A stretch of 29,120 nt of DNA from a virus. Made by a program: the position numbers and the translations under genes. Of the stretch, positions 3,301 through 29,120 are shown piece after piece (position 1 is the first letter of the stretch; the number at the start of each line of letters is the position of its first letter). The stretch is taken from positions 1-29,120 of the IMG/VR virus record IMGVR_UViG_3300042346_000152, one strand, 5' to 3'. The notes below the pieces were generated by a model. That model saw only the letters and a list, made by a program, of their open reading frames with translations, had not been told where the DNA came from and did not search any database.

Positions 3301-3600
3301 TCAGTCCTCGCTTTGCTGCAGGTATTCGTCCTCGGTCAACCCGTGGAAGGCCAGCTCGTAACCCTTGTGACACAGGCGAAAGTGTGCGCAGCTACTGCCC
3401 TTAGACTTGATGACCGACCACAGCCGATTGATTCGCACGTCACGGAACAACGAAGCTGGCATGTCATACATGCGTAGTTCGTCGCGGATGAACTCGGCAA
3501 GGTCACGCCTGCGAGTGAACTCCACGGCTGAGCCGTGGTCATCGGGAAGGTAGCATCCCGAGAGGCCGAAGGACGTTGTGTAGCGGGCAATTGTGGTCAT
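3301..3600 (-). CDS. First gene of the leftward operon, unknown function (99 aa)
   Basis: ATG 3598-3600 has CAGGAGACC just upstream. The protein starts MTTIARYTTSFGLSGCYLPD and continues with a helical segment (TRRRDLAEFIRDELRMYDMP), a basic middle and a C-terminal part (HFRLCHKGYELAFHGLTEDE) ending QQSED. It is soluble with four cysteines and not recognised. As the gene nearest the divergent control region it is probably the first translated. The stop is part of a GAGGACTGA sequence like the junctions downstream, but here the following start is replaced by a hairpin. Confidence 0.65.
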   Translation of the reverse strand: MTTIARYTTSFGLSGCYLPDDHGSAVEFTRRRDLAEFIRDELRMYDMPASLFRDVRINRLWSVIKSKGSSCAHFRLCHKGYELAFHGLTEDEYLQQSED

Positions 3601-3688
3601 TTTGGTCTCCTGGTTGATCGCCCCGACATGGAGCGCATGGCGAGAGTGTCGGCCCTTGCACGGCCCTTGTCACTAGGGACTTTCCCTC

Positions 3689-3704
3689 ATGTATAAACGT
3701 ACAG
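3689..3704. promoter_or_regulatory. LexA-box-like site (left half of divergent region)
   Basis: The sequence ATGT-N8-ACAG differs by one base from the CTGT-N8-ACAG core bound by LexA in gamma- and beta-proteobacteria. It lies 89 bp upstream of the leftward operon start and overlaps a TATACA sequence on the minus strand that could be a -10. No convincing -35 was found for it. Confidence 0.4.
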
Positions 3705-3763
3705 TGTGAGCCCTGGTGCGGGTCCGGAGACCGCCCGCAGCATGCGCAGCATGCAGCAGTTCC

Positions 3764-3791
3764 TTGCTTTCCCCATCCGTTCCCCTATACT
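3764..3791 (+). promoter_or_regulatory. Sigma70-like promoter for the terminase block
   Basis: TTGCTT (3764-3769) and TATACT (3786-3791) are separated by 16 bases and lie about 30 bases before the small terminase start. The -10 is inside a perfect 13-bp palindrome, CTATAC-T-GTATAG (3785-3797). That suggests that a repressor competes with polymerase there. Confidence 0.55.
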
Positions 3792-3807
3792 GTATAGAAC
3801 CCCAGTA
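3788..3807. promoter_or_regulatory. LexA-box-like operator overlapping the -10
   Basis: TACTGTATAGAACCCCAGTA contains CTGT-N8-CCAG with the flanking TA on both sides. It is one base away from the CTGT-N8-ACAG core and close to the look of strong SOS boxes such as that of umuD. It overlaps the -10 and the expected transcription start of the rightward promoter, the classic repressor position. Confidence 0.5.
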
Positions 3808-3819
3808 CAAAGTCTCCCT

Positions 3820-4494
3820 ATGAAACTGTCTCGCAAAGCATTAGAGAAAGCAGCTAAGGAAACTCCAATAGAGCACATTCTCGGTAGGCAAGTCTCCGGA
3901 GCACTCACTCCAAAACAAAGACGCTTCGCCCACGAAGTAGCCAAAGGCGCAACCAAAGCAGACGCCTACAGAGCCGCTTATGACGTAACAAGTAAGTACA
4001 CAATGGCAAGCAAACCATACGAGCTTATGAGGGACGAGAGGATACAGAGAGAGATAGACGCCTATGCCCTGGCAATAGAGGCGGAGAAACACAGAACCCC
4101 TGCCGCGCTGCGCTCTTTAGTCATCCAAGGCCTAGTCCAAGTAGCACTAGATGCAGATACTAAGGACGCCGTTAAGGTCCAAGCACTTAAAACCCTCGGC
4201 ACAGTTACCGAGGTCGCAGCATTTACCGAGCGCAAGGAAGTGAGGAGTATTACATCCTCCGATGATGCACGGGCCAAAGTTATGGCTGAGCTTCGCACAC
4301 TGCTGACGGCTCAGGCACAAGATGCCACGGTTATCGAGGCTGACGCTGACAGCCTGCTGCGCGAGCTTAGCGACAATATTAACGGTGCCGACAATATTAA
4401 CGCTGAGTCTGCCGACAATATTAACGCTGCGCCCGATGGAACCACAGAGCCCAGCACCGAGACCCCACCTCACCCGGACCACCCCATTGTGTGA
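3820..4494 (+). CDS. terS: Terminase small subunit
   Basis: The product (224 aa) is the DNA-recognition subunit of the packaging motor. Residues about 29-75 carry the typical small-terminase start: LTPKQRRFAHEVAKGATKADAYRAAY, an HTH-like DNA-binding segment, followed by MRDERIQREIDAYALAIE and an all-helical middle suited to ring oligomerisation. The C-terminus is low complexity, with three DNIN units encoded by GACAATATTAACG repeats and a Thr/Pro-rich tail. ATG 3820 is used because the in-frame extension to 3706 would put the promoter and LexA-like box inside the gene. The SD is weak. Position just ahead of the large subunit supports the call. The closest family cannot be named without a search. 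Confidence 0.75.
   Translation: MKLSRKALEKAAKETPIEHILGRQVSGALTPKQRRFAHEVAKGATKADAYRAAYDVTSKYTMASKPYELMRDERIQREIDAYALAIEAEKHRTPAALRSLVIQGLVQVALDADTKDAVKVQALKTLGTVTEVAAFTERKEVRSITSSDDARAKVMAELRTLLTAQAQDATVIEADADSLLRELSDNINGADNINAESADNINAAPDGTTEPSTETPPHPDHPIV
4372..4426. repeat. Three direct repeats GACAATATTAACG within terS 3' end
   Basis: Exact 13-bp copies lie at 4372-4384, 4390-4402 and 4414-4426, spaced 18 and 24 bases (in frame, encoding DNIN). The ATTAACG core recurs three more times in the following intergenic region, so the array may act as DNA sites as well as code. Confidence 0.8.
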
Positions 4495-4522
4495 GTAGGA
4501 GTCCCGCTGCCTTGAACATACT

Positions 4523-4575
4523 ATTCCACACAAACCATCCCTCATTCCACTCAAACGCCCCATTCCACACCAACG
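4523..4575. repeat. Three iteron-like repeats ATTCCACxCAAAC
   Basis: ATTCCACACAAACC (from 4523), ATTCCACTCAAACG (from 4544) and ATTCCACACCAACG (from 4562) are spaced 21 and 18 bases, about two helical turns. Regular same-face spacing is typical of protein-binding iterons. Confidence 0.65.
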
Positions 4576-4713
4576 ACTCCTAGCCCCAATGAACGCCGTA
4601 AAAATTAACGCTCCTCACCAGACCCCAGCCCTTGATCTGGAAACACCCCCCGGTAGTCGGTCTAAACAAAAGTGGCGGGGGGGTAGCAAAAATTTTGGGA
4701 GCAAATTTGGGTG

Positions 4714-4892
4714 CCGTTAAAATTAACGGATGACATAAAGTACTTTAAGAACCGTGGCTAAGTCTATGATTTGTAAGGACTTTTTGGAAAACGTGAGTTG
4801 TTAGGTGGGTGAAAAGTTGGCGACCGTTAAAATTAACGGAAGTGAAGTGATGCTTTAAGAGTGTGCGCTAAGTTGTTGATTTGTAATGGAAA
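4714..4892. repeat. 110-bp imperfect tandem duplication with identical 16-bp inverted repeats
   Basis: CCGTTAAAATTAACGG occurs identically at 4714-4729 and 4824-4839 (arms CCGTTAA/TTAACGG). At the same 110-bp offset, further matched words follow without gaps: CTTTAAGA, GCTAAGT and TGATTTGTAA. Each copy covers about 65-70 bp. It lies upstream of the LexA-like gene. Confidence 0.75.
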
Positions 4893-4984
4893 AGTGTGAA
4901 AAGCCGGTCAAGAAGTGGCGCACGAAGAAGGTATTGCAGAGTCCTCTGAGGAAGGTGTATGGGTCCAAGGAGGAGGTATTGGAG

Positions 4985-5215
4985 ATGGGGATGACTGAGG
5001 CTCAGAAGGAAGTGTTTTTGGCTATAGATGTGTGGTGGTGCCGGTTTGGGTACGGGCCTAGTTTGAGAAACATATGTGAGTTGAGGGGTAAGCCTGGGCT
5101 GGGGAGTACGAAGAAAATTGTGGATAGGTTGGTGAAGCTAGGTGCTTTGAAGAGGGTTGAAGGGATGGGGAGGTCTGTGCGGCCGACTTACATCTCATTC
5201 CGTAACATGGAGTAA
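4985..5215 (+). CDS. Stand-alone LexA-type winged-helix DNA-binding protein, no peptidase domain
   Basis: The 76-aa product aligns over its whole length with the N-terminal domain of LexA: MTEAQKEVFLAI, then FGYGPSLRNICELRGKPG, a helix (TKKIVDRLVKLGALKR) and a wing ending in GRSVRP. In E. coli LexA the same places read LTARQQEVFDLI, GMPPTRAEIAQRLGF and the EHLKALARKGVIEI helix. There is no cleavage site and no Ser/Lys peptidase domain, so it cannot self-cleave like LexA. The start at ATG 4985 is preferred because AAGGAGGAGGT ends seven bases before it; a longer in-frame version begins at 4886 without an SD. The recognition helix differs from LexA, so its operator may differ. Likely a regulator of phage genes. 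Confidence 0.65.
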   Translation: MGMTEAQKEVFLAIDVWWCRFGYGPSLRNICELRGKPGLGSTKKIVDRLVKLGALKRVEGMGRSVRPTYISFRNME

Positions 5216-5230: not shown

Positions 5231-5923
5231 ATGGACAAGTTTTTGGACTATGTAAATGAGATGTGGCCGGAGTTTATTTGTGGGCCGCACCATGAGTTGA
5301 TGGCGCAGAAGTTTGAAGAGGTCGCTGACGGGAAGATAAAGAGGCTGGTTCTAAACGTGCCGCCTCGGTTTACGAAGTCGATGTTTGCTTCGTACTTGTT
5401 GCCTAGCTGGTTCCTTGGCCGGTTTCCTGAGAAGCAGGTGATCCAAGCGGCTGGCTATAGGGATCTGGCTGTAAATTTTAAGCAGCGCGTTGACAAGTTG
5501 ATGGAGTCACAGAAATACGCTCAGGTGTTTCCTCAGCATGGAAAAACTGTAGCTACTAATGTTGGTGGCGCGGTTTGTGGGTATGCGGCTGACTTGTACA
5601 TTGTTGATGATCCGCACGAAAAAAGATTTGTTAAAGAGCGTGACTGTCAAAGTGCCTTTGATTGGTTTAATGACAATGCGATGTGCAGACTAAAACCTGC
5701 GGGCGCTATGGTTGTTGTGATGAGCAGGAGTTCTGAGTATGACTTGACGGCGCGACTTGAAGAACTTGGCGGGTGGGAGGTTGTAAAAATACCTGCTATG
5801 AAGAGTGATGGTTCTTCTACGTGGCCTGAGTTTTGGCCTGATGATCAGTTGCTTGATGTAAAACGAAACATCTCGATTGCAAAATGGCGAATGGAGTTTC
5901 AGTCAAACAATGAAGCTGGATGA
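5231..5923 (+). CDS. ATPase-only paralog of the large terminase (230 aa)
   Basis: The first 80 or so residues match the downstream large terminase at 53 of 80 positions by hand alignment, including LLPSWFLG and the region around Walker A. Here Walker A reads VPPRFTKS instead of GPRHTKS. Walker B is intact (LYIVDDPH). The coupling motif TRW has become SRS, and about 17 residues before Walker B, including the conserved GGxxTGxG segment, are shortened. It ends exactly where the nuclease domain would begin. The frame is open and has a strong SD (AAAGGAGAAG). It may be a regulatory or decaying copy made by tandem duplication. Loss of conserved motor residues makes independent packaging unlikely. 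Confidence 0.75.
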   Translation: MDKFLDYVNEMWPEFICGPHHELMAQKFEEVADGKIKRLVLNVPPRFTKSMFASYLLPSWFLGRFPEKQVIQAAGYRDLAVNFKQRVDKLMESQKYAQVFPQHGKTVATNVGGAVCGYAADLYIVDDPHEKRFVKERDCQSAFDWFNDNAMCRLKPAGAMVVVMSRSSEYDLTARLEELGGWEVVKIPAMKSDGSSTWPEFWPDDQLLDVKRNISIAKWRMEFQSNNEAG

Positions 5924-7400
5924 TCTAGTAGCGAGCCTGTCTCCTGCGGATCAGGAGAAGCTGTTACAGCAGGTACAAGATTACAAAGACGCTTTGGAAA
6001 GGGAGAAGTGTCAGAAGAGCTTCATGGCGTATGTAAAAAAGATGTGGCCGGGGTTTATTCATGGCCGGCATCATGCGGTGATGGCTAAGAAGTTTGAGGA
6101 GATTGCGGAAGGGAAGTTAAAGAGGCTGATCATCAATCTCGGGCCTCGGCACACAAAGAGCCAATTTGCTTCGTACTTGCTGCCTAGTTGGTTTCTTGGA
6201 AAATTTCCCGACAAAAAAATCATTCAAGCATCCAACACTGCGGATCTGGCGGTGAATTTTGGGCGGCAAGTTCGTAACTTGGTTGGGTCTGAGGAGTACG
6301 CAAGAATTTTTCCTAGTGTTGCTTTAAGACAAGACTCCAAGTCTGCGGGTCGGTGGGCTACTAATAAGAACGGCGAATACTTTGCTATTGGTGTTGGTGG
6401 AACGATGACGGGTAAGGGCGCGGACCTTCTTATCATTGACGATCCGCACTCGGAACAAGAGGCTGCTTTAGCCGCTGGTAGGCCGGAAGTCTATGACTCC
6501 GTGTTTGAATGGTACTCATCTGGCCCGCGTCAGCGTCTCCAGCCGGGTGGGGCCATAGTAGTAGTAATGACCAGATGGGCGAAGTCGGACTTAACAGGCA
6601 GGATACTAAAGACCGCTGGCGAGTTGGGTAAGGAAGATCAGTGGGAAGTCATTGAACTTCCGGCGATCATGCCTTCGGGTAAACCCTTATGGCCTGAGTT
6701 TTGGTCGCTTGAGGAACTGTCTGCTCTAAGAGAAGAACTCCCACAGGGTAAGTGGAACGCTCAGTACCAGCAAAATCCCACCGCTGAAGAAGGCGCGATT
6801 GTTAAACGGGAGTGGTGGAAAATTTGGGACCGGGAGAAGCCTCCTTCATGTGAGTTCATCATCCAGTCTTGGGACACTGCTTTTACCAAGGGAGAAAGAA
6901 ACGACTACTCTGCGTGTACTACGTGGGGTGTGTTTCACATGAATGAGAACGAGAATGACGTCAACATCATCTTGTTGGACTGTTTTCAGCGGCGGATGGA
7001 GTTTCCTGAACTAAAAGAGAAGGCATTGTCTCTTTATAGAGAGTGGGAGCCTGATGCTTGTATAGTAGAAGCAAAGGCTGCAGGGGCTCCTTTGATCTTT
7101 GAGCTTAGAAAAATGGGCATTCCGGTATCTGAATACACCCCTAGCCGTGGAAACGACAAGTTTGCCCGTATTAATTCTGTGGCAGATCTGTTCCAATCAG
7201 GTAAAGTGTGGGCTCCAGATACCCGGTGGGCTAGAGAACTCATCGAAAACATGGCCGCTTTCCCGAATGCCCCGCACGACGATGATGTCGATAGCGCAGT
7301 TCAGGCCCTGATCCGCTTCCGGCAGGGTGGTTTCTTGCGTCTACAAACAGACGAACAAGACGAAGTTCGGTCTTTCAGGCGTAAAGTAGCGTTTTACTGA
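5910..7400 (+). CDS. terL: Terminase large subunit (packaging ATPase and nuclease)
   Basis: The 496-aa motor protein cuts concatemeric DNA and pumps it through the portal. The N-terminal ATPase domain shows Walker A GPRHTKS, the conserved GVGGTMTGKGAD block, Walker B LLIIDDPH with the catalytic acid, and the coupling motif VVMTRW. The C-terminal RNase H-like nuclease shows the three acidic sites SWDTAF, DACIVEAKAAG and PHDDDVDSAVQ. The length is normal for the family. ATG 5910 overlaps the end of the paralog gene by 14 bases, with GGAG about 12 bases upstream; an ATG at 5877 is also in frame. The portal gene follows nine bases after the stop. Confidence 0.93.
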   Translation: MKLDDLVASLSPADQEKLLQQVQDYKDALEREKCQKSFMAYVKKMWPGFIHGRHHAVMAKKFEEIAEGKLKRLIINLGPRHTKSQFASYLLPSWFLGKFPDKKIIQASNTADLAVNFGRQVRNLVGSEEYARIFPSVALRQDSKSAGRWATNKNGEYFAIGVGGTMTGKGADLLIIDDPHSEQEAALAAGRPEVYDSVFEWYSSGPRQRLQPGGAIVVVMTRWAKSDLTGRILKTAGELGKEDQWEVIELPAIMPSGKPLWPEFWSLEELSALREELPQGKWNAQYQQNPTAEEGAIVKREWWKIWDREKPPSCEFIIQSWDTAFTKGERNDYSACTTWGVFHMNENENDVNIILLDCFQRRMEFPELKEKALSLYREWEPDACIVEAKAAGAPLIFELRKMGIPVSEYTPSRGNDKFARINSVADLFQSGKVWAPDTRWARELIENMAAFPNAPHDDDVDSAVQALIRFRQGGFLRLQTDEQDEVRSFRRKVAFY

Positions 7401-7409
7401 GGATTCAGC

Positions 7410-9872
7410 ATGTCAGCAAATTTTGCATCCACGACAACACCCCTTGACATGGGGTTGATGACCGAAGAACCGGCGATTGAGATTGAAATTGAAGATCCTG
7501 AGAGCGTAAAAATTGGGATTGACGGCGTTGAGATTGAACTTGAGCCAGAAACTGAGACGACTGAAGAGTTTGATGCCAATCTTGCTGAGTACATGGACGA
7601 GGCGGATCTAGAAGAGTTGGCCTCTGAACTGATTGACTTGGTTGAATCGGACATTAACAGCCGAAAAGACTGGACAGACATGTTTGTCAAGGGCCTGGAA
7701 GTCCTTGGCATGAAGTATGAAGAGCGGACTGAGCCGTGGTCCGGGGCTTGCGGGGTTTATTCACCTCTTTTGACCGAAGCTGCGATCAGGTTTCAGTCGG
7801 AAATGATCACTGAAACCTTCCCGGCACAAGGCCCGGTGAAGACTCAGATCATTGGAGCGATAGATAAGCTCAAAGAAGAAGCAGCAGATCGTGTCAGGGA
7901 TGACATGAACTACATGCTTACTGAAAAGATGATTGACTATCGCTCAGAACACGAGCGGATGCTGTATTCGCTGGGGCTTTCCGGGTCGGCGTTCAAGAAA
8001 ATCTACCCAAACCCGAATACAGAACTGCCGGCTGCGCCGTTCATCCCTGCAGAAGACCTGATCATGCCCTATGGGGCGTCAAATGTGTACACCGCCGAGC
8101 GCGTAACCCATGTGATGCGCAAGACGGAGAACGAAATCAAGAAACTCCAGGTAGCCGGGTTCTACAAGGATATAGAACTTGGTGAGCCTACTCACATTTT
8201 TTCTGATATTGAGAAGAAAAAGGCTGAAGAGCAGGGTTATTCCTTAACGGATGACGATCGCTATCAGGTGATGGAGATCCATGTTGATTTGGACTTGAAA
8301 GGGTACGAAGATGAGATTCCGATTCCCTACATTGTTACTATTGAACGTGGTACTCAGGAAGTTCTTGCAATCCGCAGGAATTGGGAAGAGACGGACAAGA
8401 AAAAACTCAAGCGACAGCACTTCGTTCAATACACCTACATACCGGGGTTTGGTGCTTATGGCCTGGGTTATATCCACATTATTGGTGGTTATGCTCGGGC
8501 TGGCACTTCCATCATTCGCCAACTTGTAGATGCGGGTACGCTGTCTAACCTGCCGGGTGGTTTAAAGTCTCGTGGTTTAAGGATTAAGGGAGACGACACG
8601 CCGATTGCGCCGGGTGAGTTCAGGGATGTAGATGTTCCGTCCGGTGCGGTTAGGGACAACATCATGCCCTTGCCGTACAAGGAGCCGAGTCAGGTTCTGG
8701 CGGCGCTGCTTGAGAAAATTACTGAGGACGGTCGAAGGCTGGCGGCTATTGCTGATCTAAAAATTAGCGACATGAGCGCACAGGCCCCGGTGGGGACTAC
8801 GCTGGCAATTTTGGAGCGGCAACTCAAGACCATGAGTGCTGTTCAGGCGCGGGTTCATGCCTCGCTTCGGATGGAGTTCAAACTTCTGAAGGGAATCATC
8901 AGAGATTTCTTGCCGGATGAGTATTCATACACCCCTGAAGGTGGTGACCGGGCGGTCAAGCGGGCTGACTACGACACGGTAGAGGTAATTCCTGTCAGCG
9001 ATCCAAATGCCGCCACGATGGCGCAGCGGATCATGCAGTACCAAGCTGCTATTCAACTTGCCCAAAGTGCTCCGCAAATCTACGACTTACCACAACTTCA
9101 CCGGCAGATGCTGGAAGTTCTTGGTATCAAGAATGCGGAAAAATTGGTGGCTTTGCCCGGGGATGAAAAGCCGCAAGATCCTGTGACTGAAAACATGAAT
9201 GTTTTGAGAGGCAAGCCGATCAAGGCTTTTGCTTATCAAGATCATGAGGCGCACTTGCTGACGCATCAAGCGTTCATGCAAGATCCAAAAATTGCCGCGA
9301 CGGTTGGGCAGAACCCAATGGCTCAAGGCATGATGGCTGCACTCATGGCTCACATTGCAGAACATGCTGCGTTTGCTTATCGAGCACAGGTAGAGATGGC
9401 ACTGGGAGTTCCCTTGCCGGTGCTGGATCAAGAAAACAACGCTCCCATTGCGCCAGAAGATGAGAAGGCGTTGGCTCCGCTGATTGCCGCTGCGGCTCAG
9501 AGGACGATGGTTCAAAACCAAGCGATGGCCGCGCAGATGCAGGCCCAGCAGCAGGCGCAAGATCCAACGATCCAAATGGCTCAAGCAGAGCTTCAGTTGA
9601 AGCAAGCTGAGATGGAGCGCAAGTCGCAGAACGACCAGATGGACTTCCAAATTGCTCAAGGCAAACTTCAACTTGAGCAGGCCCGACTGGCGCTTGAAGC
9701 CCAAAAGGGGCAAGGTGAAGATCCCCGGCTGAAGGCTATCCGGGCGCAACAAGAACTTCAACACAAGGAGCAGGCACATCAACAAAAGATGAGGCAGCAA
9801 ATTCAATCGGATGCAATCAAAACCAGACAGCAGATGCTTCGCTCTGCTTCCAAACCAAAGGCTAAAGAATGA
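7410..9872 (+). CDS. Portal protein (820 aa)
   Basis: The portal is the dodecameric ring at one capsid vertex through which DNA enters and leaves. Position straight after terL, large size and content support it: an acidic N-terminus (to residue 70), a core with WSGACGVYSPLLTEAAIRFQ and MLYSLGLSGSAFKKIYPNP, a helical segment with YARAGTSIIRQLVDAGTLSN, and a clip-like region. From about residue 690 it is a long Gln/Ala-rich coiled coil (QAELQLKQAEMERKSQ and similar) ending in a basic tail. That tail resembles the long helical barrel of podovirus portals such as P22 gp1. It matches the portal type common in uncultured aquatic short-tailed phages, from memory. Confidence 0.88.
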   Translation: MSANFASTTTPLDMGLMTEEPAIEIEIEDPESVKIGIDGVEIELEPETETTEEFDANLAEYMDEADLEELASELIDLVESDINSRKDWTDMFVKGLEVLGMKYEERTEPWSGACGVYSPLLTEAAIRFQSEMITETFPAQGPVKTQIIGAIDKLKEEAADRVRDDMNYMLTEKMIDYRSEHERMLYSLGLSGSAFKKIYPNPNTELPAAPFIPAEDLIMPYGASNVYTAERVTHVMRKTENEIKKLQVAGFYKDIELGEPTHIFSDIEKKKAEEQGYSLTDDDRYQVMEIHVDLDLKGYEDEIPIPYIVTIERGTQEVLAIRRNWEETDKKKLKRQHFVQYTYIPGFGAYGLGYIHIIGGYARAGTSIIRQLVDAGTLSNLPGGLKSRGLRIKGDDTPIAPGEFRDVDVPSGAVRDNIMPLPYKEPSQVLAALLEKITEDGRRLAAIADLKISDMSAQAPVGTTLAILERQLKTMSAVQARVHASLRMEFKLLKGIIRDFLPDEYSYTPEGGDRAVKRADYDTVEVIPVSDPNAATMAQRIMQYQAAIQLAQSAPQIYDLPQLHRQMLEVLGIKNAEKLVALPGDEKPQDPVTENMNVLRGKPIKAFAYQDHEAHLLTHQAFMQDPKIAATVGQNPMAQGMMAALMAHIAEHAAFAYRAQVEMALGVPLPVLDQENNAPIAPEDEKALAPLIAAAAQRTMVQNQAMAAQMQAQQQAQDPTIQMAQAELQLKQAEMERKSQNDQMDFQIAQGKLQLEQARLALEAQKGQGEDPRLKAIRAQQELQHKEQAHQQKMRQQIQSDAIKTRQQMLRSASKPKAKE

Positions 9873-14440: not shown

Positions 14441-14471
14441 TACGGCTCCTATGTTGTGTAACGGAGATCCC

Positions 14472-15308
14472 ATGAAAGAGCCAGTCATCTACAAGATCCG
14501 CAATGTCGTAAACGGCAAGTTTTACGTCGGAAGCACCACTGACACACGCGAACGGTTTCGCACACACCGCTCTCGTTTGCGCAAGGGCGTGCATCACTGT
14601 CGCCACCTCCAGGCCTCTTGGAACAAGTATGGAGAGGACTGTTTTAAGTTTGAAGTTCAAGAAGTGGTTGAGAATGCAACCAAACTTTGGGAGGCTGAGG
14701 CACGTTGGTTGGCTGAGCACTACGGTAAAGCTTATTGCTATAACGCTGGCAGTTCACCAGACGCGCCTATGCGAGGACGTTTTGGTGCAAGCAACCCAAA
14801 GTACAAAGTTCCAATAGCTGAAGAACAAAAAGCCGCAATCTCCGCCACGCTCAAAGCGTTTTACGCTGAAGACCCCAATAACCACCCCCGTGTAGGCAAG
14901 CAGCACACAGAAGAAACCAAAGCAAAAATTAGTGCCAAGGTCAATCAAGCCATAGCCGAAGGTCGAGGCGGTGCTTTCATACCGTCAGAGGAGACGCGGC
15001 AGAAAATGTCGGAAGCACTGAAAGGCAACCAGAACGCTCTTGGCTACAAGCGCACTGATGCCGAGCGTGAGGCTATTCGCCAGCGCACATTAGGCAACCA
15101 AAACTTCCTTGGCAAGAAACACACCGAAGAGTCCAAGCAGAAGATGCGAAAGAGCGTGGTAGAGCGGACATCGGGTCAAGTGTTTGACAGCTTGACTGCT
15201 GTGCTTGCGCACTATCAGATGACCATGCCTACCCTGCGGCGGGCGCTTGTTGCGGGCAAGCCTATTACCAAGGGCAAGTTTGCTGGTTTGGTGTTTGTTT
15301 ACGCTTGA
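14472..15308 (+). CDS. GIY-YIG homing endonuclease with NUMOD3 repeats (278 aa)
   Basis: The N-terminal nuclease domain reads VIYKIRNVVNGKFYVGST (the GIY and YIG strands), with the conserved Arg nearby (ERFRTHRSRLRKG) and Glu later (LWEAEARWLAEHY). The C-terminal part carries NUMOD3-type DNA-binding units with the 'H.EE.K.K' pattern (HTEETKAKISAKV, SEETRQKMSEALKGNQN, HTEESKQKMRKSV) and a final HTH-like segment. ATG 14472 has CGGAG six bases upstream; the earlier ATG at 14451 has none. It sits between a coat terminator and the next structural gene. It probably moves by cutting related phages that lack it. Confidence 0.93.
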   Translation: MKEPVIYKIRNVVNGKFYVGSTTDTRERFRTHRSRLRKGVHHCRHLQASWNKYGEDCFKFEVQEVVENATKLWEAEARWLAEHYGKAYCYNAGSSPDAPMRGRFGASNPKYKVPIAEEQKAAISATLKAFYAEDPNNHPRVGKQHTEETKAKISAKVNQAIAEGRGGAFIPSEETRQKMSEALKGNQNALGYKRTDAEREAIRQRTLGNQNFLGKKHTEESKQKMRKSVVERTSGQVFDSLTAVLAHYQMTMPTLRRALVAGKPITKGKFAGLVFVYA

Positions 15309-27023: not shown

Positions 27024-27650
27024 TCAAGAAACTTTACGTTTGTTGTCCCAATATGCTTTTCTGGCAGCGGATAGTTTGGCGCGGTATTCCGGCGTGTCCC
27101 ACTCGGCACGACGAGCCTTGAATTCTGGTGAATTCATGGTTACCTTAAGTCGCTCCTTGCGTTGGGCGAGCGCCTCTGGTGTTGACATTTTTTCGCGCCT
27201 TCGATCTTGGGCTTTTTGTATGCCCTGTATGCGGCGTTTTTTAATCTCAGTGTCAGTGTTGAGTATTTTGTGGTACTCACGCATTGGATTAGTTGGGTCA
27301 AGTAAGCGCTGGCGTTTTGCCTCCAACACTTCTTGTCTTGGTCGAGTTACGCCTTCTCCGCCGTCTGTAAAGTTTGCAAGCGTGCCTCCGTCAGAAATGC
27401 GCTTAAAGTGCGCAATTAAAGATTTTTCTAGTGAGCAAGCATCTTCCCAAGAAACCCGAACAAAGCGTTGTACTTTTATGTTCTCCGGTCCATACTTCTG
27501 CACCATCCGGAAGCACAAAGTGTTGCGATCTTTTGTCTTGATGCATGTCGGCTTCCAACGCGTAGAAGTCTTGCCAATTCCGACATAAAACGGAATCCAG
27601 TCAGGGCTAAACCAAATGTACACGTACGCAGAAGCATCGAGTGTTTTCAT
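27024..27650 (-). CDS. GIY-YIG endonuclease on the reverse strand (208 aa)
   Basis: The N-terminal GIY-YIG region reads YVYIWFSPDWIPFYVGIGKT with a conserved Arg (STRW) soon after. The Glu-bearing helix SLEKSLIAHFKRISDGG follows, then TLANFTDGGEGVTRP and a long basic helical C-terminus with repeated 'S.E...R' blocks (NSPEFKARRAEWDTPEYRAK). It points against all surrounding genes, between the lysis cassette and a tail gene; its start faces that of the tail gene across 14 bases. AT-richer than the lysis genes. A free-standing homing nuclease is the likely reading. Confidence 0.85.
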   Translation of the reverse strand: MKTLDASAYVYIWFSPDWIPFYVGIGKTSTRWKPTCIKTKDRNTLCFRMVQKYGPENIKVQRFVRVSWEDACSLEKSLIAHFKRISDGGTLANFTDGGEGVTRPRQEVLEAKRQRLLDPTNPMREYHKILNTDTEIKKRRIQGIQKAQDRRREKMSTPEALAQRKERLKVTMNSPEFKARRAEWDTPEYRAKLSAARKAYWDNKRKVS

Positions 27651-27664
27651 GAGAGGAGCATAAC

Positions 27665-29120
27665 ATGCCCCTAAAAAAACTGAAACTTAATACAGGGGTT
27701 TCGAGGGAAAACACTCGCTACTTCAACGAGAACCGTTGGTATTCCTGCGACAAGATCCGCTTTCGCCAGGGCACGCCTGAAAAAATTGGTGGCTGGCAGC
27801 GGGTAGCGTCCACCAGTTATCTTGGCACATGCCGCTCTCTGTGGCAGTGGGCAACCAATGGCGGTGTACCCTACATTGGCGTAGGCACACACCAGAAGTA
27901 TTACGTCTACTACGGTGGAACGTATTACGACATCACGCCTGTGGTTAGCACAACTGCTGCCGGGGCGGTCACATTTTCTGCGGTAACGGTGTCTCCGTTT
28001 AGCACAACCATCACTGTCAACCACACAGGACATGGCGCTACGGTAGGAACATCTGTCACGTATTCTGGAGTTAGTGCTTCCGGGCTGGGTGGCGCTATTA
28101 CTCAGGCGGTTTTGCAGTCTGAGTTTCAGATTACGTCCGTGATTGATGTTAATTCTTACACCATCACTTCGCCAGTCTTGTCCAATGCTTCTGACACTGG
28201 GAATGGTGGGGCGGCTGTAGTAGGGGCGTATCAGGTCAACGCTGGCAATGATATTGAAACGCCTGTTGCGGCGGCGTGGGGAACTGGCGGGTGGGGTCTT
28301 GGAGCATGGGGTGTAGGCTCTGGCGGGATAACCCCAATCAGAATCTGGAACCATCAAAACTTTGGTGAAGATTTGATCTATGGCCCCAAGGGTGGGCCAA
28401 TGTACTATTGGGATACATCTGCTGGGTTTACTACTAGAGGCGTGGCTTTGTCTTCCATGCCCGGTGCAACAGATGTTCCAACTGCACAAAATTTGTTCAT
28501 CGTGTCTGATGCGTCAAGATTCGTTCTTGCGTTCGGTTGCAATGACTATGGGGCAACAGAACTAGACCCGATGCTGATTCGGTGGACCGCACAGGAAAGC
28601 GCGGTGAACTGGACGCCATCTGCCACGAACCAGGCCGGCAGTCTTAGGTTGTCTCACGGGTCAAAGATCGAGGCAATCCAGCAGGTGCGCCAGGAAATCT
28701 TGGTCTTCACAGACACAACGCTGTACGGCTTGCAATACTTAGGCGCTGGCAATGGGGTCTGGGGATCTCAGCTTCTGACAGATAACATCTCCATCATCAG
28801 TGATCGATCAGTAGTGACCGCATCTGGTGTTACCTACTGGATGGGTGAAGACAAGTTCTATGTCTTTGATGGTCGAACCAACTCTTTGGAATGCGACCTT
28901 AGAGAATATGTCTTCCGTGATATCAACATCAATCAATACCAGCAAGTCTTCAGTGGAACGAATGAGCAGTTCAATGAAGTTTGGTGGTTCTATCCGTCGC
29001 TTAACAGTACGGTAGTTGACAGGTATGTAATCTACAACTACGTGGAAAAGGCGTGGTACTACGGCACTCTTGGCAGAACCGCTTGGATTGACGTTGGCTT
29101 GTTCTCAAACTATCCCATCG
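27665..29120 (+). CDS. Tail-hub or DNA-stabilisation protein, gp10-like, 3' end cut by window edge
   Basis: ATG 27665 follows GAGAGGAG and the frame stays open for 485 codons to the edge, so the product is longer than this. The start reads MPLKKLKLNTGVSRENTRYF and NENRWYSCDKIRFRQGTPEK. A glycine-rich turn (GTGGWGLGAWGVGSGG), then LIYGPKGGPMYYWD, FIVSDASRFVLAFG and WMGEDKFYVFDG follow. These match large virion proteins that sit below the adaptors in podovirus tails (P22 gp10-type), from memory. Residues about 115-190 look like an inserted Thr/Ser beta module (HTGHGATVGTSVTYSGV) similar to modules in the 844-residue protein. Confidence 0.72.
   Translation, partial: MPLKKLKLNTGVSRENTRYFNENRWYSCDKIRFRQGTPEKIGGWQRVASTSYLGTCRSLWQWATNGGVPYIGVGTHQKYYVYYGGTYYDITPVVSTTAAGAVTFSAVTVSPFSTTITVNHTGHGATVGTSVTYSGVSASGLGGAITQAVLQSEFQITSVIDVNSYTITSPVLSNASDTGNGGAAVVGAYQVNAGNDIETPVAAAWGTGGWGLGAWGVGSGGITPIRIWNHQNFGEDLIYGPKGGPMYYWDTSAGFTTRGVALSSMPGATDVPTAQNLFIVSDASRFVLAFGCNDYGATELDPMLIRWTAQESAVNWTPSATNQAGSLRLSHGSKIEAIQQVRQEILVFTDTTLYGLQYLGAGNGVWGSQLLTDNISIISDRSVVTASGVTYWMGEDKFYVFDGRTNSLECDLREYVFRDININQYQQVFSGTNEQFNEVWWFYPSLNSTVVDRYVIYNYVEKAWYYGTLGRTAWIDVGLFSNYPI

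Follow-up and report, generated by a model that had tools for sequence, protein, structure and literature searches.

Putative LexA-type operators upstream of the terminase genes in a group of uncultivated tailed phages

Introduction

In coliphage 186 (tum), SPC32H, and CTX phage, a host LexA box lies on a phage promoter, and DNA damage starts the lytic cycle. LexA in these phages mostly controls an antirepressor or works together with a phage repressor. In the Bacillus thuringiensis tectivirus GIL01, lysogeny is kept by host LexA, and the late promoter P3 is repressed via tandem LexA boxes (PMC6182141). LexA boxes are present at the early as well as the late promoters of GIL01, and both a dedicated phage repressor and integration are absent (PMC6182141, PMC4551915). 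The GIL01 protein gp6, a truncated LexA homologue, activates P3 through a 6-2-6 palindrome, GaCACAn nTGTGaC (PMC6182141). Other host transcription factors act at phage promoters in several lineages, among them CtrA in phages of Alphaproteobacteria, with lytic deferment, and Spo0A in phi29; host regulators can thus serve phages in which no integration module is evident (PMC9437464). In the open literature, with few subscription papers included, we did not find a description of LexA boxes at the terminase or late promoters of tailed phages.

The locus described here lies in a 29,120-base IMG/VR record, the whole of which was analyzed and is called the window. Together with its relatives it resembles GIL01 in several respects. 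Boxes of the host-LexA type are found at early or replication genes and at the late promoter, a phage repressor and integrase were not found in the available contigs, which are not closed, and the phage encodes a truncated homologue of the LexA DNA-binding domain alongside 6-2-6 palindromes, here CGTTAA-nn-TTAACG. It differs from GIL01 in being a tailed dsDNA phage of ~60 kb with a terminase, boxes of the Gram-negative type, and a LexA-type operator that controls the terS operon in the proposed scheme. Its truncated homologue is encoded inside the late operon, and a lysogenic state like that of GIL01 is hypothetical here. In contrast to 186, SPC32H, and CTX, the boxes lie directly on the terminase operon and on the replication-initiator gene, and no phage repressor was found. 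Compared with the CtrA and Spo0A systems, the signal taken from the host would be DNA damage relayed by LexA, and deferment is hypothetical.

Results

The rightward genes of the window run in the order terS, a LexA-like winged-helix gene, terL, portal, and head genes, and the left side holds small leftward genes without assigned function. The genes referred to below are as follows.

3301 to 3600, minus strand: first leftward gene, an ORF of 99 aa, which follows site 1 in the leftward direction
3820 to 4494, plus strand: terS, terminase small subunit, opening the late operon (phrog_51, 4.6e-9; Pfam Terminase_2, 8.3e-5)
4886 to 5215, plus strand: truncated LexA homologue of 109 aa, with the winged-helix DNA-binding domain only and the S24 peptidase absent
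5877 to 7400, plus strand: terL, terminase large subunit (phrog_38, 2.5e-112)
7410 to 9872, plus strand: portal protein (phrog_1216, 6e-25)

Homologues of the first leftward gene sit to the left of site 1 in L003, L008, L016, and L018. In a 51-kb relative (G001), genes for an exonuclease, a Sak annealing protein, a helicase, a primase, and a ParB-like protein follow beyond the leftward genes. No close annotated phage was found by DNA comparison or by a terS match. The terL relatives among annotated phages are below 60% identity, and strong boxes were absent from the terL regions of DSL-LC04, 023Pt_psg01, and HTVC027P when these were scanned.

A sequence-only reading of the window had proposed two LexA-like sites between the leftward and rightward genes, ATGT-N8-ACAG at 3689–3704 and CTGT-N8-CCAG at 3790–3805. 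Both are present with the sequence and coordinates claimed: the first is ATGTATAAACGTACAG, and the second is CTGTATAGAACCCCAG, within TACTGTATAGAACCCCAGTA (3788–3807). The elements of this region are listed here.

3675 to 3687, unstranded: second dyad, AGGGACTTTCCCT, adjoining site 1
3687 to 3706 (core 3689 to 3704), unstranded: site 1, LexA-like operator TCATGTATAAACGTACAGTG, matrix rank 2 in the window, 13.7 bits
3764 to 3791, plus strand: late promoter, inferred by reading, with −35 TTGCTT at 3764–3769, a 16-bp spacer, and −10 TATACT at 3786–3791
3788 to 3807 (core 3790 to 3805), unstranded: site 2, LexA-like operator TACTGTATAGAACCCCAGTA, matrix rank 1 in the window, 17.9 bits

Both sites are one base off the CTGT-N8-ACAG core. 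Cores with one mismatch occur 11 times in the window against 11.8 expected (shuffle mean), which is chance level, and a matrix and a comparative test were therefore used instead. The 20-bp symmetrised matrix was built from an informal working set of 18 E. coli SOS boxes, so that its scores are a lead; it represents the E. coli motif, which may not be that of the host. By this measure the third-best match in the 29-kb record reaches 11.0 bits, versus 17.9 and 13.7 for sites 2 and 1. The expected number of sites scoring as high as site 1 is 0.11 per window, and a scan of 3 Mb of Markov sequence gave zero matches as good as site 2. The training boxes, scored by leave-one-out, range from 6.7 to 27.3, most of them above 15, which puts site 2 in the range of ordinary SOS boxes and site 1 among weak ones. 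The CTGT-N8-ACAG dyad is thus found in a 20-bp AT-rich context, in the window by matrix score and in relatives with perfect cores. Two further matches, at 27678 in the window (11 bits) and at 34338 in the relative G018, fall inside coding sequence and were taken as chance.

Site 2 had been placed on the −10 and start of a TTGCTT-16-TATACT late promoter, and the position is borne out, with the −10 (3786–3791) and site 2 sharing two bases. Site 2 thereby shows the promoter overlap of an SOS box, at the −10 of terS. Most relatives keep GTTCCCCTATA and a TTGC- or TTGA-like −35; a strict consensus sigma-70 scan did not call the terS promoter. The surroundings of site 1 are less clear-cut. The TATACA said to overlap it on the minus strand is present at 3690–3695 but is not conserved in relatives where site 1 is kept (L009, L011, L012, and L013), and the consensus sigma-70 scan called no promoter at site 1. 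The further suggestion that site 1 controls a leftward promoter thus retains a conserved position and loses its conserved −10, and we infer such control only as a possibility. The dyad adjoining site 1 takes the form AGGG-N4/5-CCCT in both box clades and is doubled in L009, L011, and L019.

Relatives of terS were gathered twice, yielding 44 and then 80 loci, with some contigs recurring. The conservation scan covered 79 terS loci with a threshold of 10.5 bits for a matrix match, and the upstream region was taken as the 260 bases before terS, 20.2 kb over all loci. These loci are partly redundant and the counts not independent; with that limit, 109 matches lie in the 20.2 kb upstream of terS and one in the remaining 386 kb. 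When the matrix was replaced by 100 symmetric column-permuted versions, the upstream matches averaged 0.5 and reached a maximum of 9, as against 109. The motif search in related phages that the sequence-only reading had called for therefore has a positive outcome, with LexA-like boxes upstream of terS in 59 of the 79 relatives. The reading would have been undermined had close relatives lost both sites, a condition set beforehand; the sites are kept, with site 1 missing in two close relatives (L004 and L007).

Site 2 occurs in the relatives as 17 distinct alleles, in which the outer CTGT...CAG is nearly always kept and the middle is variable; perfect-core alleles include CTGTATAGAACCACAG, CTGTAAAGAACTACAG, and CTGTAMATTCATACAG. 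The 13 distinct alleles of site 1, located at −87 to −221 from terS, include CTGTATGAACGTACAG and CTGTGTTTTCATACAG, and several are CTGT-N8-ACAG. In a clade with terS ~51–60% identical (L021–L026 and L148–L161), the −10 is TATAAT or similar, and an intact box begins 8 bp from the first base of the −10, as against the 4 bp seen elsewhere. The box is shifted relative to the −10 yet intact, which indicates that the dyad, and not the promoter, is what is conserved. Conversely, L028–L032 retain the GTTCC...−10 promoter with the box absent, so that promoter conservation does not account for the boxes. More remote lineages carry other LexA-like boxes before terS (L153, L164, L168, L096, L056, and L081).

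Larger relatives contain boxes away from terS as well. In G011, G012, and G019, a box precedes a gene that matches phage replication-initiation O-like families and plasmid RepL, and in G011 it comes directly after a TACAAT −10. Of 26 loci, 23 have a box in the replication region, where it precedes a small conserved gene. G013 has three tandem LexA boxes with an exact 21-bp spacing (L187:3043–3104), upstream of a nuclease-like gene that is followed by ParB-like, helicase, and primase genes. The longer box-less relatives G014, G015, and G006, 178 kb taken together, gave one matrix match. As in GIL01, boxes are therefore found at both replication and late promoters, the late one being site 2 and the other that of the initiator gene in G011, G012, and G019. 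For the genome of the window itself, the replication region is either uncovered or box-less. The window's twin, G002/L204, is 100% identical over 10.7 kb and is without the replication-region box, and so the regulon differs between genomes.

The protein encoded at 4886–5215, called the 4985 protein in the sequence-only reading, scores 20.5 bits against LexA_DNA_bind, below the cut-off of 23.7, and its profile matches LexA in PDB entry 3k2z (3.8e-5). An AlphaFold2 model shows three helices and a wing, with a pLDDT of ~90 over residues 31–90. Its recognition helix is GLGSTKKIVDRL, and that of E. coli LexA is SPNAAEEHLKAL. The box-less relatives equally carry a homologue with much the same recognition helix. 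Between terS and terL there are two copies of a palindrome that has been considered as a site for this winged-helix protein or as a pac site.

4714 to 4729, unstranded: palindrome CCGTTAAAATTAACGG, copy 1, proposed winged-helix protein site or pac site
4824 to 4839, unstranded: palindrome CCGTTAAAATTAACGG, copy 2, with the same proposed roles

Both copies lie in two 81-nt repeats, and every ATTAACG word of the window falls within 4378–4832. Among the records scanned, 19 of 20 full CGTTAA-N2-TTAACG copies are in terS or in the gap between terS and the winged-helix gene. The relatives have lineage-specific full palindromes, even in the coding 3′ end of terS, and some other clades have different palindromes at the terS 3′ end or in the same gap. 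We consider the CGTTAA-N2-TTAACG palindromes, just upstream of the winged-helix gene, to be better candidate sites for the truncated homologue than the boxes.

Tyrosine integrase (PF00589) and resolvase or serine integrase (PF00239) were absent from the records searched. The same records, in which the box-clade contigs are not closed, gave zero family matches to S24 peptidase, HTH_3 repressor, or ParA, and the 62.8-kb relative G011 yielded no S24 or HTH_3 protein. The missing part of the box-clade contigs could encode a repressor, and a repressor of an unrecognized family could also be present. Terminal repeats were found only in the box-less G014 and G006. As to the host, a single-protein scan of species genomes for a related prophage gave no match, and no tRNA genes were found that could serve as a clue. 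An alignment scan returned mostly MAG contigs whose taxa contradict one another; these are probably binned phage, and the scan was set aside.

Discussion

Conservation, the permutation control, and the further boxes strongly support sites 1 and 2 as LexA-type operators. It is likely that they serve as operators for host LexA, of the gamma/betaproteobacterial type CTGT-N8-ACAG, and that they gate the late promoter until the SOS response; the specificity of the host LexA is assumed here, and this motif may not be that of the host. The sequence-only reading had named either host LexA or the 4985 protein as the binder. The first proposal agrees with the operators found, and the second fits poorly with the recognition helix of the 4985 protein and its presence in box-less relatives. 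Because of the different helix and this distribution, we favor host LexA as the binder. It is probably also the main switch in the box-clade phages, since the boxes of related phages reach replication genes and no CI-type repressor or integrase was found.

LexA bound to site 2 would mask the last bases of the −10 together with the start of the terS promoter, which would keep the packaging and structural genes off. At site 1 it would probably restrain leftward early transcription or aid repression at site 2, and it probably also represses further phage promoters until SOS. RecA filaments on single-stranded DNA would then cause LexA to cleave itself, and the late promoter would open. Damage to the host would set off RecA and SOS, and replication of the phage itself may do the same. 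For the truncated LexA homologue, a later role at other sites is probable, with the CGTTAA-N2-TTAACG palindromes of the terS–terL interval as its targets.

An unlikely but serious alternative is that the boxes form a strictly lytic timer and have no part in dormancy. The late genes would await SOS from phage replication or host DNA breakdown, which would give an early-to-late order without a phage regulator. The best-conserved box is indeed the one on the late promoter, integrase, CI, S24, and ParA were not found in the records searched, relatives encode an exonuclease, a Sak annealing protein, a helicase, and a primase, and the related DSL-LC04 was called virulent by BACPHLIP (PMC10611076). 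The boxes before the replication initiator argue the other way, as they would hold back replication in an unstressed cell. They favor deferment, or a silent episomal or carrier state, over a lytic timer.

It is improbable that the binder is an unrecognized phage repressor with LexA-like specificity, encoded outside the sequenced parts. The window and the box-clade contigs are incomplete and many early genes are without a family match, which leaves room for such a protein; the 62.8-kb G011, however, yielded no S24 or HTH_3 candidate. Binding of both boxes by the phage's own truncated LexA homologue, which would then autoregulate the late operon, is very improbable. A LexA-type winged helix encoded beside the boxes makes the idea attractive, as does the GIL01 precedent for truncated LexA-type proteins at late promoters of phages (PMC6182141), but the helix GLGSTKKIVDRL differs from the SPNAAEEHLKAL of E. 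coli LexA and is similar in box-less relatives, and the palindromes upstream of its own gene are better candidate sites. That the sites are AT-rich promoter parts kept for RNA polymerase, with an accidental likeness to LexA boxes, is scarcely credible: site 2 does overlap the −10 and one-mismatch cores are at chance in the window, but the permuted matrices never exceeded 9 upstream matches against 109, the box shifts relative to the −10 between clades, site 1 is retained without a conserved promoter, further boxes stand at other gene starts, and L028–L032 keep the promoter without the box.

With host LexA as the preferred binder, a broader picture can be put forward tentatively. These phages may form a widespread tailed-phage family without an integrase or repressor of its own, in which host LexA gates both virion production and replication initiation while a LexA-derived protein works on late-operon palindromes. 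The logic of GIL01 would have been reached independently, with a deferred lytic cycle. If so, uncultivated freshwater phages lacking their own repressor would time virion production by the DNA-damage state of the host, and the GIL01 principle would extend to tailed phages with a terminase. It would also suggest that phages classed as virulent because they have no integrase are still capable of a silent state gated by the host. LexA boxes before terS would be a simple sequence mark for such phages in metagenomes.

Several other features of these genomes were observed. A partial second copy of the N-terminal (ATPase) part of terL, ~42% identical to terL, lies at 5231–5923 of the window and is restricted to a few close relatives (L002, L003, L006, L009, and L010). 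In L011, L020, L031, and L096, the terL homology is split by a gap of ~0.8–1 kb that resembles an intron or homing-endonuclease insertion. Two homing-endonuclease-like genes (phrog_314) occur amid the structural genes of the window, at 14451–15308 (plus strand) and 27024–27650 (minus strand). Among 47 early proteins of G011, the best match to the RNA polymerase alpha C-terminal domain (PF03118) has an E value of 3.9e-16; assigned to its gene by reading the sequence, the domain probably belongs to a small early protein at L183:17112–17483 (minus strand).
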